Translations under genes and position numbers: made by a program
Virus record (IMG/VR): IMGVR_UViG_3300005617_000751
Span: 1 to 23,793 of that record
Source: a virus
Length of the DNA stretch: 23,793 bases
Reading direction: 5' to 3' (one strand)
In this document: in pieces, positions 20,530-23,793 of the stretch
How positions within the stretch are numbered: the stretch's first letter is position 1
Layout: the number at the start of each line of letters is the position of its first letter
Notes under the pieces: generated by a model
The model's database searches: none
Told to the model about the DNA's origin: nothing
What the model saw: the letters and a program-made list of their open reading frames with translations, nothing else

Positions 20530-20664
20530 TTAAATCCAAATATGAACATAAATCGTTTTTTCTTCAAAATCGTCGGCGAGTATTTCCTTGTCGACATAGA
20601 CAATACGCCATGCGATTTTAATTTTTTTACGCAGGTCCTTTATTTGAGACAGTATGGTTGCCAT
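20530..20664 (-). CDS. 44-aa mini-gene overlapping the 3' end of small terminase
   Basis: An ATG inside the last codons of the terminase gene, in the +1 frame, opens a 44-codon ORF that crosses the otherwise unexplained 109-bp gap and stops with a TAA whose bases run into the GGAG used by the next gene. The translation begins MATILSQIKDLRKKIKIAWR, continues with VYVDKEILADDFEEKTIYVH, and looks like a real soluble protein: a basic amphipathic helix followed by two strand-like segments with balanced charges. No Shine-Dalgarno precedes the ATG, so translation would depend on ribosomes finishing terminase. The overlap with terminase is 38 nt. No family recognised. The case rests on protein-like composition and the neat fit between neighbours. 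Confidence 0.55.
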   Translation of the reverse strand: MATILSQIKDLRKKIKIAWRIVYVDKEILADDFEEKTIYVHIWI

Positions 20665-21220
20665 TGTTATTTGTTAACATCGTTGCTAAATCTGATTTTA
20701 ACTGATCTATTTCCTTTTGTAACTCGAATACTTGGTGCGTTCTTAACCCAATATTGACCGCTTCCATCAATTGTTTTATTTCACTCGCGGTAAAATCACC
20801 ATTGGCTGCTTGTAATAGTAATTGACTGTAATGTTTGCTCGGATTGCCAGTCGGATCAAGATCTAATTTTATTCTTGAATTCTTACTGATACCAAAACGT
20901 GACCAACCCATCATCTTCCAATGATCAAATTTGTGATTTACCATACCGACGGGAGTGACCTCCTCTCTCAATTTATATCCTTCTATTTCCCATTCTTCAC
21001 GAGCAAACATTTTTCCTAGTTCATAACATTCACGAAAAATAGGAAAATCTTTTACCCATTCGTAAAAAGTGGTTTCACAAATATGAACTTCGGTACAAAA
21101 AGCCGTATAGCGTCCCTTTTGTAGCATGATTTTTAATATTAACGGACAGTGTGCTTCTTCATCAAATTTACTCTTTTTCCATCGTAATTTTTTGTAAAGA
21201 GCAATAACATCGATTGCCAT
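20627..21220 (-). CDS. Small terminase subunit, DNA-recognition (197 aa)
   Basis: Residues about 38-58 (TAFCTEVHICETTFYEWVKD) form a helix-turn-helix of the small-terminase type, followed by FPIFRECYELGKMFAREEWE and a KFDHWKMMGWSRFG region common in phage DNA-packaging proteins. The C-terminus has an oligomerisation-type coiled coil (HQVFELQKEIDQLKSDLATM). It would bind the viral packaging site and load the large subunit. The large terminase is not in this window, which is unusual for a gene so close to portal. The AAGGA is 12 nt from this ATG; an out-of-frame ATG 7 nt upstream is better placed, so translation may be inefficient. It heads the structural block, with the lysis cassette diverging 74 nt away. 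Confidence 0.8.
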   Translation of the reverse strand: MAIDVIALYKKLRWKKSKFDEEAHCPLILKIMLQKGRYTAFCTEVHICETTFYEWVKDFPIFRECYELGKMFAREEWEIEGYKLREEVTPVGMVNHKFDHWKMMGWSRFGISKNSRIKLDLDPTGNPSKHYSQLLLQAANGDFTASEIKQLMEAVNIGLRTHQVFELQKEIDQLKSDLATMLTNNNGNHTVSNKGPA

Positions 21221-21293: not shown

Positions 21294-21638
21294 ATGACCA
21301 CAGAAAAACGGAAGAAAGAACCAAAAAAGAATGAAGAAATTGCTTCGCCTGATCTTGTTCTTATTTCTGAAACGATTAAATCACAATTACAAAACATCAA
21401 TAAAAGATTCGATGAATTATTAGAATTATCTAATATTTCCTTGGATGATGTAAAAAGTAAAATAAAAGAGGTGCACGTGTGTCATGCTGCTCAAATGCAA
21501 CAAATACTAAATGCCTTAATCATTCAAAAAGATTTTGCTCGTGATCAATCTTTGAACCAATTTAAAGTCACCGCTCTTGGGCTTGGATTATCTTTGACTG
21601 TTTTGTGCGCAATCAGTGTAAAAATCTTTTTTGGATAA
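21294..21638 (+). CDS. Tail-anchored coiled-coil protein, holin/XhlA-like topology (114 aa)
   Basis: GAGGG lies about 8 nt before the ATG. Residues 1-15 are very Lys/Glu-rich, residues ~20-90 are a helical coiled-coil-like stretch (ISETIKSQLQNINKRFDELL), and residues 92-114 are one transmembrane segment (VTALGLGLSLTVLCAISVKI) at the extreme C-terminus. This N-in, C-terminally anchored build is seen in XhlA-type hemolysin/holin accessory proteins and some phage holins. It opens a four-gene plus-strand unit ending in an endolysin candidate, which supports a lysis role, but there is no sequence motif proving holin function. A membrane-tethered regulator or superinfection protein is an alternative. 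Confidence 0.7.
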   Translation: MTTEKRKKEPKKNEEIASPDLVLISETIKSQLQNINKRFDELLELSNISLDDVKSKIKEVHVCHAAQMQQILNALIIQKDFARDQSLNQFKVTALGLGLSLTVLCAISVKIFFG

Positions 21639-21642
21639 AAAA

Positions 21643-21831
21643 ATGACAATAAATGATCAGGTAAAATTTGTAGATCAAAAATCACGCATAATATTCCTTC
21701 TTCTTGATAAAATTTTGAGCATAATGTTGGATAAAAATAAAACAATACAAGATTTTGAACATTTCCAGGATATATGTAATTATTTTATTCAGAAGTTAGA
21801 GGGGTTTGCTAAAGATTTAAACAATGTCTGA
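21643..21831 (+). CDS. Small helical protein in lysis cassette (62 aa)
   Basis: The ATG at 21643, 4 nt after the preceding stop and with GGA 7 nt upstream, is preferred over an in-frame TTG at 21631 that overlaps the previous gene. The sequence is almost entirely helical (VDQKSRIIFLLLDKILSIML, then FEHFQDICNYFIQKLEGFAK), with an amphipathic hydrophobic patch in the first half but no full transmembrane segment. No family recognised. Tight spacing on both sides indicates cotranscription with the tail-anchored protein and the endolysin candidate. It could be a lysis-timing partner (antiholin-like), but that is conjecture. Confidence 0.6.
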   Translation: MTINDQVKFVDQKSRIIFLLLDKILSIMLDKNKTIQDFEHFQDICNYFIQKLEGFAKDLNNV

Positions 21832-21878
21832 TAGTTACCACTACTAGACTTTTGAAACCAGATTAATAGGAAAATACC

Positions 21879-22049
21879 ATGTCCACCTATCACGAAGGAT
21901 TTAATGATGCAACTCACAGAATAATGTATTTATGTGATAAAGAAATAGAACGGCATTCTATAAAAGAAAATGGCGATAAAGGATTAGCTATATTAGAATT
22001 CAAACTTTATTTGGAACAATTGCTTTTAAAGGAAGATAAAACAATTTAA
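21879..22049 (+). CDS. 56-aa small protein in lysis cassette
   Basis: A short ORF with AGG 8 nt before its ATG fills the gap between the 62-aa gene and the endolysin candidate. Its stop abuts the AAGGA of the next gene, leaving 8 nt to that ATG. The translation (MSTYHEGFNDATHRIMYLCD and so on, ending LEQLLLKEDKTI) is charged and helical with no membrane segment. No family recognised. Position, ribosome site and codon use like its neighbours support a real gene; function unknown. Confidence 0.65.
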   Translation: MSTYHEGFNDATHRIMYLCDKEIERHSIKENGDKGLAILEFKLYLEQLLLKEDKTI

Positions 22050-22057
22050 GGAATGGC

Positions 22058-22528
22058 ATGTTTAATTCAATTCAACTCCGTGAGCTTATTATACGGCCTG
22101 TTCTTCATGATCTCATTGCTTATTCAGAAGATGCCGTAGAACTACTCATTTTTACTTGTGCTGTCGAATCCGATGGTGGAACTTATATTAAACAAATAAA
22201 AGGGCCTGCATTAGGTATTTATCAAATGGAGCCGGATACTTACAATGATTTGTGGATGAACTATATAAAAAATAAACCTGATCTTATCATGAAATTATTT
22301 TCAAACTTCGGTATTAATTTAATCCCACCAGAAGATAGAATGATTTATGATCTTCGTTTTGCAACCGCTATGGCAAGAATTTTTTATATGAGAACAGCTG
22401 AAGAAATCCCTCGCTCAAAAAATAGAGAGGCTGTTTGGGACTACTATAAAAAATATTGGAATACAAAAGACGGTAATTCTAAAAAAGATGCTTCCATCAG
22501 AAAATACTTATCTTTTATGACTAATTAA
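22058..22528 (+). CDS. Endolysin candidate, lysozyme/transglycosylase-like fold (156 aa)
   Basis: AAGGA lies 5 nt before the ATG. Residues 34-41 read CAVESDGG, placing a candidate catalytic Glu at position 37 in an E-S-x-x-G context. Residues 49-59 read GPALGIYQMEP, the second motif of soluble-lytic-transglycosylase/goose-lysozyme-like folds. Further on, YDLRFATAMARIFYMR and VWDYYKKYWNT match a widespread phage family I recognise by the GPALGxxQMEP and YWKxxYNT-like signatures. It has no signal peptide, so release to the wall would need a holin, consistent with the membrane protein at the head of this unit. It is the last gene of the cassette and meets the opposing operon with an 8-bp tail-to-tail overlap. 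A virion-associated muralytic role is the main alternative, since the gp16-like protein lacks this domain. Confidence 0.75.
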   Translation: MFNSIQLRELIIRPVLHDLIAYSEDAVELLIFTCAVESDGGTYIKQIKGPALGIYQMEPDTYNDLWMNYIKNKPDLIMKLFSNFGINLIPPEDRMIYDLRFATAMARIFYMRTAEEIPRSKNREAVWDYYKKYWNTKDGNSKKDASIRKYLSFMTN

Positions 22529-22733
22529 TTTCAGGATATCTTTCTAATAAAGTAGAAATAGAAATATTTCTGAAACAGGTTCGGCAAAGCAAACGAGTTA
22601 CTCGCTCAGTCATTTCTATTTTCACCCATTGAATAGGAATATAATCATGTGGCCCTCTATTCTTTCCACATAATTCTATCGCTTCTTTTTTTTCTCTTTC
22701 CATTCTTTCATCATGCGCTCTATTTAGACTCAT
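22521..22733 (-). CDS. 70-aa Cys/His protein, possible zinc ribbon
   Basis: The ORF starts 14 nt inside the 3' end of the LptE-like gene, so the two are coupled; GAG about 8 nt before the ATG is a weak Shine-Dalgarno, and Met11 is an alternative start. The N-terminal third is a highly charged helix (RAHDERMEREKKEAIELCGK). C22, H29, C50 and C53 (LCRTCF) could form a metal site, with HDYIPIQWVKIE between them. Short phage proteins with C-x6-H-D-(W/Y)-x-P-I and a later C-x2-C are common, so this looks like a phage gene rather than a host lptE neighbour. Function unknown. Confidence 0.65.
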   Translation of the reverse strand: MSLNRAHDERMEREKKEAIELCGKNRGPHDYIPIQWVKIEMTERVTRLLCRTCFRNISISTLLERYPEIN

Positions 22734-23271
22734 TAATTTTTCTCGATGATAATTGATATATTATAGATATAATAACATCTTGTCTTAATTTTTCATATCT
22801 TCCTTCTGCTTGAGTATCCATGGCTAATTTATTTTTAAAAGAGCCTGAAACAGATTGGTTCCTCATTATTTTCCTTTCATTTATTATTTTTTCTCCAGAA
22901 GGACTATAAAGAGAATAAGTTACATTAACAGAAACAAATATAGTCTCTACCTGAAATTTAGGATCATAATGAGACATAGAAATCTTTTCTGAAAAATTAA
23001 TTATTTCTAAGGTGTAACTTCCATTTGATACATCATCAATTCTAATATTTGAAAGTAATAAAATATTCTTTAACTCTTTTGTGAATTTATTATAGGGATC
23101 ATACGTTTTAATATAAATACTATTAAAATCTTTAGGAAAAGAATATTCGCTCCGTAACTGAAATCCACAGCCGGATAAGAATAAAAAAATAAGAAGCCAT
23201 CCATGGCTAAGGATTTTAATAAGAACGGAACTTATTCTTGTAAACACAGGGAGCCATAATATTTTTGTCAT
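22720..23271 (-). CDS. lptE: LptE-like LPS-assembly lipoprotein (phage-linked)
   Basis: A lipoprotein signal ends in L-S-G-C (Cys35 from this ATG), preceded by a hydrophobic WLLIFLFL. The mature protein opens CGFQLRSEYSFPKDFNSIYI followed by TYDPYNKFTKELKNILL. This parallels LptE (E. coli CGWHLRDTTQVP, then a DPN...LSRAVRNQLRLNGV region). It continues with a middle strand region with VETIFVSVNVTYSLYSPSGE and a C-terminal AMDTQAEGRYEKLRQDVIIS helix, again the LptE layout. Mature length (~149 aa) is somewhat short because the Ser/Thr-rich tail is missing. LptE plugs LptD at the outer membrane to insert LPS. The start is uncertain: ATG at 23271 or GTG at 23247 (27-residue signal), neither with a Shine-Dalgarno and both inside the upstream gene. 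Host lptE normally sits between leuS and holA; neither is here. Confidence 0.8.
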   Translation of the reverse strand: MTKILWLPVFTRISSVLIKILSHGWLLIFLFLSGCGFQLRSEYSFPKDFNSIYIKTYDPYNKFTKELKNILLLSNIRIDDVSNGSYTLEIINFSEKISMSHYDPKFQVETIFVSVNVTYSLYSPSGEKIINERKIMRNQSVSGSFKNKLAMDTQAEGRYEKLRQDVIISIIYQLSSRKINESK

Positions 23272-23638
23272 GCACAGACACACTCGTTTTGGCATATGTT
23301 TTAAAATGTCCCTTATCAGGTGTGCTAAAAAAACCAGAAATCTGTTGTTGATCTGAAAAAGTTTGACCCGGCTCAATGACACGAGAAATATGTTTAGACG
23401 CGACTTCCTTTTCCCCATTTCCTTGATCAAGAGAAGAAGAATAATAAATATGATACGTGTAACTTTTATTTGTGTCGTTTGTAATATGAACACCGTGATT
23501 ACTTGCAACATTTAATCCATTACTATGACGAGATTCATAATATGGCATTTCACAAACCAATGTGCCGCCACCCGGACCTGATGCAAATGAAGATAAACTA
23601 GATAAAATTAAACTAACAGCGCATAAAGTTTTTTTCAT
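23216..23638 (-). CDS. Secreted protein of unknown function (140 aa)
   Basis: The ATG at 23638 is preferred: AAGG lies about 9 nt upstream and it begins a classic Sec signal (MKKTLCAVSLILSSLSSFAS, cleavage probably after Ala19 or close by). The frame continues 19 codons further upstream but without a ribosome site. The mature part opens GPGGGTLVCEMPYY and contains two Cys, near the start and at APCVYKN near the end, which could form a disulfide. The rest is polar and strand-rich (KSYTYHIYYSSS, HISRVIEPGQTF, KGHFKTYAKTSVSV), suggesting a small periplasmic or secreted beta-sandwich. No family recognised. Its 3' end overlaps the LptE-like gene, so the two are cotranscribed and probably act together in the envelope. 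Confidence 0.75.
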   Translation of the reverse strand: MKKTLCAVSLILSSLSSFASGPGGGTLVCEMPYYESRHSNGLNVASNHGVHITNDTNKSYTYHIYYSSSLDQGNGEKEVASKHISRVIEPGQTFSDQQQISGFFSTPDKGHFKTYAKTSVSVHDKNIMAPCVYKNKFRSY

Positions 23639-23663
23639 TATATATACCTTATTATTAATAAAT

Positions 23664-23690
23664 TCGCCGACAGTGTAAGATACCTCGCCG
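23664..23690. repeat. Direct repeat TCGCCG, 21-bp period, over the operon promoter
   Basis: TCGCCG occurs at 23664-23669 and 23685-23690, start to start 21 bp apart (two helical turns). One copy lies in the spacer of the candidate promoter and the other at about the transcription start. This is the arrangement expected for a tandem repressor site, but the hexamer is short and could be coincidental. Confidence 0.35.
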
Positions 23691-23700
23691 TTCAATACAA
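23672..23700 (-). promoter_or_regulatory. Candidate promoter of the secreted protein/LptE operon
   Basis: On the minus strand TTGTAT (23700-23695) is followed after exactly 17 bp by TACACT (23677-23672). The match to sigma70 consensus is partial (3/6 and 4/6). Transcription would start near 23665, leaving a leader of about 27 nt that contains AAGG ahead of the ATG at 23638. No other promoter-like pair is apparent in the 155 bp upstream of the gene. Confidence 0.4.
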
Positions 23701-23733
23701 GCGTCTCTACGCGGTGCCCATGGGGCCAGGAAC

Positions 23734-23770
23734 CTATAGCACAAGCCTATAGCAAAGACTATAGCAAAGA
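23734..23770. repeat. Tandem CTATAG repeats (12-13 bp period)
   Basis: CTATAG occurs at 23734, 23747 and 23759. The last two belong to perfect tandem 12-mers, CTATAGCAAAGA at 23747-23758 and 23759-23770; the first is a degenerate 13-bp unit (CTATAGCACAAGC). The period is slightly more than one helical turn. The array lies upstream of the envelope operon, next to a GC-rich patch (23702-23730) unlike the surrounding AT-rich DNA. It may be a protein-binding array or a small mobile-repeat remnant. The bases from 23771 to the right edge show no gene I can support. Confidence 0.5.
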
Positions 23771-23793
23771 GTAATCCATAACCTACATAACAT

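Follow-up and report, generated by a model that had tools for sequence, protein, structure and literature searches.

The window, by which we mean the whole stretch of DNA analysed here, is a linear IMG/VR virus record of 23,793 bp. Its ORF list and profile matches show that the minus strand carries the virion block of a podovirus, containing genes for the terminase small subunit, portal (PF12236), capsid assembly protein (T7-type, PF05396), major capsid protein (PF19821), tail and internal proteins, and fibres. The terminase small subunit gene is the first of this same-strand block; the terminase large subunit (TerL) was recognised by PHROGs and went undetected by PF17289. At the right end of the window, the virion-block strand carries a secreted-protein gene, lptE and a gene for a Cys/His protein, all overlapping. 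Conservation counts in the following list refer to 81 viral loci in total, 80 of which were gathered by a major capsid protein search.

20627-21220, minus strand: terminase small subunit (phrog_309, E=6.4e-5), conserved in 62 loci.
22058-22528, plus strand: endolysin-like ORF (phrog_3108), conserved in relatives (59 loci), convergent with the Cys/His gene.
22521-22733, minus strand: conserved phage Cys/His protein of 70 aa, present in 48 loci, its N-terminus aligned from Met1 in relatives.
22720-23271, minus strand: lptE homologue, a 183 aa lipoprotein (evidence: ORF, NCBIfam, PDB sequence matches, profile, models), with a signal peptide at about residues 1-34, a predicted lipidated Cys35 and a predicted LptE fold.
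23216-23638, minus strand: secreted-protein gene, 140 aa, with a signal peptide-like start (evidence: ORF, distant homologue in the relative G009).
23663-23752, plus strand: inverted fragment of the TerL gene 3′ end, its last 29 codons plus stop (evidence: blastn and tblastn to relatives).

A first-pass annotation of this DNA had placed an LptE homologue at 22720-23271 with no strand given; an ORF occupies exactly this interval on the minus strand, and the plus strand across it is riddled with stops. The overlaps claimed on both sides are also there: 56 bp (23216-23271) are shared with the secreted-protein gene at the lptE start, and 14 bp (22720-22733) are shared between the lptE stop region and the start of the Cys/His gene. 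Promoter and terminator scans gave results at chance level only. The neighbouring ‘phage lysis cassette’ holds up in part: the ORF at 22058-22528 has, by eye, a lysozyme/transglycosylase-like motif, but only one profile matches it significantly, namely phrog_3108, a PHROG without an assigned function. Three small ORFs (114, 66 and 56 aa) lie on the plus strand at 21294-22049, between the small terminase and endolysin-like genes; the first ends in a hydrophobic segment, and all three are absent from all relatives examined.

Both flanks of the lptE region are conserved phage DNA. On one side the Cys/His gene begins with a conserved stretch, inside which the lptE stop codon falls. On the other, 23663-23752 encodes the last 29 residues of TerL on the strand opposite to lptE, and blastn and tblastn detect this inverted fragment, identically placed, in over 30 relatives. 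Three near-full-length relatives have it as a perfect inverted copy (69-119 bp) of their own terminase 3′ end. The inverted fragment and the Cys/His gene are separated by 0-530 bp in the relatives and by 930 bp here. In relatives the gap holds variable small ORFs of several kinds and here it holds the secreted-protein gene and lptE, so that these two genes are cargo in a variable slot between conserved flanks. The GC3 values of lptE (0.19) and its secreted partner (0.23) are close to those of neighbouring phage genes (0.21-0.30). The only IMG/VR match to the secreted protein is on the contig of the relative G009 (L089:14412-14882; 31% identity over 94 aa, E=3e-6 in a small database), which indicates that the secreted-protein family belongs to these phages. 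That homologue sits near the other end of the early region.

Because conserved phage DNA brackets it on both sides, the region is not the end of a host chromosome carrying the only lptE copy, the outcome that would have undone the original proposal, and the location of lptE inside phage DNA is well supported. It is very improbable that the locus is an artefact, with a host lptE fused to a phage contig by mis-assembly or lying in a prophage flank. The gene does sit near a contig end, on one contig, with no second copy in IMG/VR; but phage-specific DNA continues on its outer side, its stop is embedded in the Cys/His start, leuS and holA are not nearby, its GC3 fits the phage genes, and its partner gene has a phage homologue. 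Host-contamination and chimera readings are largely rejected on the evidence of both flanks.

The inverted TerL ends have some features of their own. Repeats of the TerL 3′ end were located at L092:8926-9027, L089:1717-1779 and L090:11848-11895, with the corresponding TerL ends in L093, L088 and L091, and in the window at 23663-23793. The inverted copies adjoin the Cys/His gene and are 100% identical within a phage, though from phage to phage TerL ends diverge by 20-30%. They bracket a virion module of ~24 kb, and many IMG/VR contigs break there; they could mark an invertible module or a genome-end link. The terminase and tail genes of one relative (G005) have a tyrosine recombinase gene between them (L202:1389-2354), close to the inverted repeat; its product might act on the repeats, or its presence might signal temperate life. 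With that exception, a search for tyrosine integrase (Phage_integrase) gave no match in the window or in the other 10 of 11 relatives searched, several of these records being fragments. A role in shielding the lysogen surface, one of the functions first suggested, consequently has little support.

LptE is the plug of the LptD translocon, which exports LPS to the bacterial surface. The minus-strand ORF at 22720-23271 encodes an LptE homologue. It is matched by the NCBIfam model for LptE, NF008062 (E=4.5e-7, 30 bits), and a sequence search of the PDB returned eight matches up to E=10, all of them LptE/RlpB, led by Shewanella RlpB (2r76, E=2.9e-5). A search of 369 gammaproteobacterial genomes gave matches at E<=1e-3 in 140, in nearly all cases a single one, which usually spans the entire protein (best E=1.7e-16), and in 64 of 71 retrieved chromosomal loci both leuS and holA lie beside the match, the usual neighbourhood of lptE. 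A profile of chromosomal LptEs scores 117 bits against the phage ORF, compared with 8.9 bits for the next best of ~3750 phage ORFs and 4.5 bits for the best of 1000 shuffles; its members were chosen partly by similarity to the phage protein, and the NCBIfam and PDB matches are therefore the independent sequence evidence.

Homology to LptE extends over the mature protein, which is complete from lipobox through strands to C-terminal helix. The sequence elements on which the identification was first based are present: the lipobox LSGC followed by Gly at +2, the CGFQLR opening, the DPY...L-x-N-x-L-L-x-x-x-I segment (DPYNKFTKELKNILLLSNI) and the C-terminal helix, at residues 146-181 of the model. 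The lipoprotein signal carries outer-membrane sorting (LSGC-G, +2 not Asp), with both the Cys and Gly columns conserved in the alignment. The proposed check against the LptE family thus found NCBIfam, PDB-sequence and predicted-structure matches, while the Pfam LptE/RlpB model (PF04390, gathering threshold 23 bits) gave none, as follows from a divergence that leaves at most about 30% identity. The 30 bits from NF008062 also fall short of that model's equivalog cut-off (235 bits). Such cut-offs are scoring thresholds and not biological features; missing them classes the protein as a divergent homologue and not as an equivalog.

By prediction the phage protein has the LptE fold, a four-stranded sheet packed on two helices. 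AlphaFold2 with LptE relatives in the alignment gave a model of pLDDT 79, for which Foldseek ranks 1-33 were all LptE/RlpB (2r76: target TM 0.91, 1.8 Å). An alignment-free AlphaFold model was of low confidence (pLDDT 55), and its Foldseek ranks 1-12 were still LptE. The phage protein is like LptE/RlpB (PF04390, NF008062) in its near-full-length homology, lipobox with Gly at +2, CGFxLR motif and predicted fold. It differs in being phage-encoded and divergent beyond the reach of the Pfam model, most of all in its C-terminal half, and in lying outside leuS-lptE-holA, with phage genes on both sides; that gene order is usual in the family, not essential to membership.

Divergence is uneven along the protein. 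Its identity to any chromosomal LptE sampled is at most about 30%. The N-terminal signature keeps 13 of 19 consensus positions, about the same as in chromosomal copies, and the C-terminal half keeps 5 of 20, fewer than any other of the 42 proteins in the comparison, against a consensus that was built from most of those 42 and so favours them. The positions matching Escherichia coli R91, T95 and K136 are changed, those of R91 and K136 being variable among chromosomal LptEs too. In a tree, the phage LptE forms a long branch among gammaproteobacterial sequences, joined to another long branch from a 2.4 Mb genome of a large order (G038); this pairing of two long branches may be false. The best chromosomal matches come from gammaproteobacteria with 1-2 Mb genomes. 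The gene was not copied recently from any of the LptEs in this sample.

These comparisons bear on what the protein might do. Phages often carry cargo genes of host origin, and this one retains all the elements of LptE (lipobox, fold and length), as would suit a working helper copy that maintains LPS assembly during host shut-off, or shifts LPS density, with no part in exclusion. We consider such a helper unlikely, since the host LptE is stable and present already, the E. coli LPS-contacting positions are not kept, and no chromosomal LptE in the sample lies close to the protein. It is similarly improbable that an old LptE fold has acquired a new target, binding some other envelope protein or working with the secreted partner without any link to LptD. 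The diverged C-terminal half and a partner of no assigned function would fit such a change, but the N-terminal LptE signature and the whole fold are kept, and chromosomal LptEs differ widely among themselves.

The proximity of an endolysin-like gene raises lysis as another possible role. Outer-membrane spanins (Rz1-like) are, like the phage LptE, phage lipoproteins encoded near a lysis-like gene; however, the protein here has 183 aa and the LptE fold, and no inner-membrane spanin partner gene overlaps it, the overlapping genes being those for the secreted and Cys/His proteins. No spanin was recognised elsewhere within the window. A divergent LptE made with the virion genes might itself aid lysis and release, competing for LptD, jamming LPS export and so weakening the outer membrane. 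This would accord with the position of lptE upstream on the virion-block strand, the lack of a recognised spanin and the strong C-terminal divergence. A stop in LPS export is slow relative to a lytic cycle, however, and relatives manage without lptE; we regard a lysis aid as rather unlikely.

In the collections searched, no second viral gene of this type came to light. Direct searches of IMG/VR and of the genome collection found no close relative of the phage LptE. Pattern scans with three LptE alignments (mixed, enteric-type and small-genome-type) gave no confirmed viral LptE, with the proviso that such scans need short conserved stretches and could miss distant viral LptEs. PHROGs has no LptE family. 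The full records of 29 relatives gave no LptE match; one locus (L060) has a weak lptE-like match (E=0.036). In BFVD there was one weak structural match (E=7e-4), an ‘LPS-assembly protein’ labelled as from virus sp. ctd0M1 (A0A8S5REG3), which shares the LPS-assembly description with LptE but has a TM of only 0.33-0.35 and 9% identity. No phage-encoded LptE was found in the open-access literature. The remark in the first-pass annotation that a phage LptE is not known to have been described survives within these searches of IMG/VR, GenBank phages, PHROGs, relatives and literature, for a protein that is itself beyond Pfam's reach. The phage LptE is a singleton on a single metagenomic contig.

The 50,697 GenBank phage records yielded one LptE match, in ‘Pseudomonas phage Y3, complete genome’ (L200, OQ572405.1). 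It was ruled out as a viral LptE: leuS and holA flank the gene and the record is marked UNVERIFIED. From its leuS-lptE-holA order the record looks like a piece of Pseudomonas-like chromosome deposited as phage.

We infer that the phage LptE functions as an outer-membrane lipoprotein that docks in the LptD of the host. By analogy with known LptE families, it would be exported and lipidated at Cys35, the Lol pathway would send it to the outer membrane by virtue of Gly at +2, and it would insert, LptE-like, in the periplasmic lumen of host LptD. Less certainly, it might displace the host's LptE from some of the LptD molecules, giving a hybrid translocon whose surface loops or LPS output are altered. 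The most likely benefit would be superinfection exclusion, whereby the infected cell or its debris would cease to capture sister phages whose receptor is LptD or LPS, or else the phage's own progeny. The co-encoded secreted protein may help in the envelope.

There is a precedent for phage action at this site. In the closed state of the LptDE structure, LptE T95 contacts the extracellular loop EL4 of LptD, and an unrelated phage lipoprotein, Rtp45, binds LptDE and moves EL4/EL5, causing superinfection exclusion (PMC12685063). Rtp45 (acting on LptDE) and Llp of phage T5 (acting on FhuA) are, as the phage LptE would be, phage lipoproteins on the periplasmic face of the outer membrane. Rtp45, however, is a protein of about 6 kDa that binds alongside LptD, LptE and LptM, whereas the LptE homologue described here would be expected to stand in for LptE itself. 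The PDB sequence search up to E=10 gave LptE chains only, from a set that included LptDE-Rtp45 entries, and so no sequence relation to Rtp45. An altered plug of phage origin could, in place of the host subunit, bring about exclusion by a route other than that of Rtp45, and the searched literature held no description of exclusion or surface remodelling by subunit replacement.

The competition with host LptE and the superinfection exclusion suggested by the first-pass annotation are plausible. Our favoured reading, held tentatively and at somewhat less than even chances, is that the phage LptE is podovirus cargo that replaces host LptE in LptD, most likely for superinfection exclusion. It is supported by the LptE homology and fold, the phage location, the N-terminal signature combined with a diverged C-terminal half, and the Rtp45 precedent. 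It is weakened in that known exclusion lipoproteins are small and not LptE-like, that R91 and K136 vary in chromosomal LptEs, that Pfam does not reach the protein, and that one contig carries it with no second phage carrier. The fuller proposal of a virus-made LPS-translocon subunit that replaces the host plug in LptD and, with its secreted partner, alters receptor display or LPS output is a possibility we would put at about one chance in three.

If true, a viral LptE would mean that phages can act on LPS export by swapping a core subunit, unlike O-antigen modification or receptor capping, and it may give the virus a means of interfering with its host's outer surface. A divergent natural LptE would also offer a way to probe plug control of the LptD loops and gate.

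A capsid search of gammaproteobacterial genomes gave distant relatives only. Two major capsid proteins ~40% identical to that of the window are encoded in one 1.9-Mb gammaproteobacterial genome (G133; L169, L171), a possible clue to the hosts of the wider phage group.
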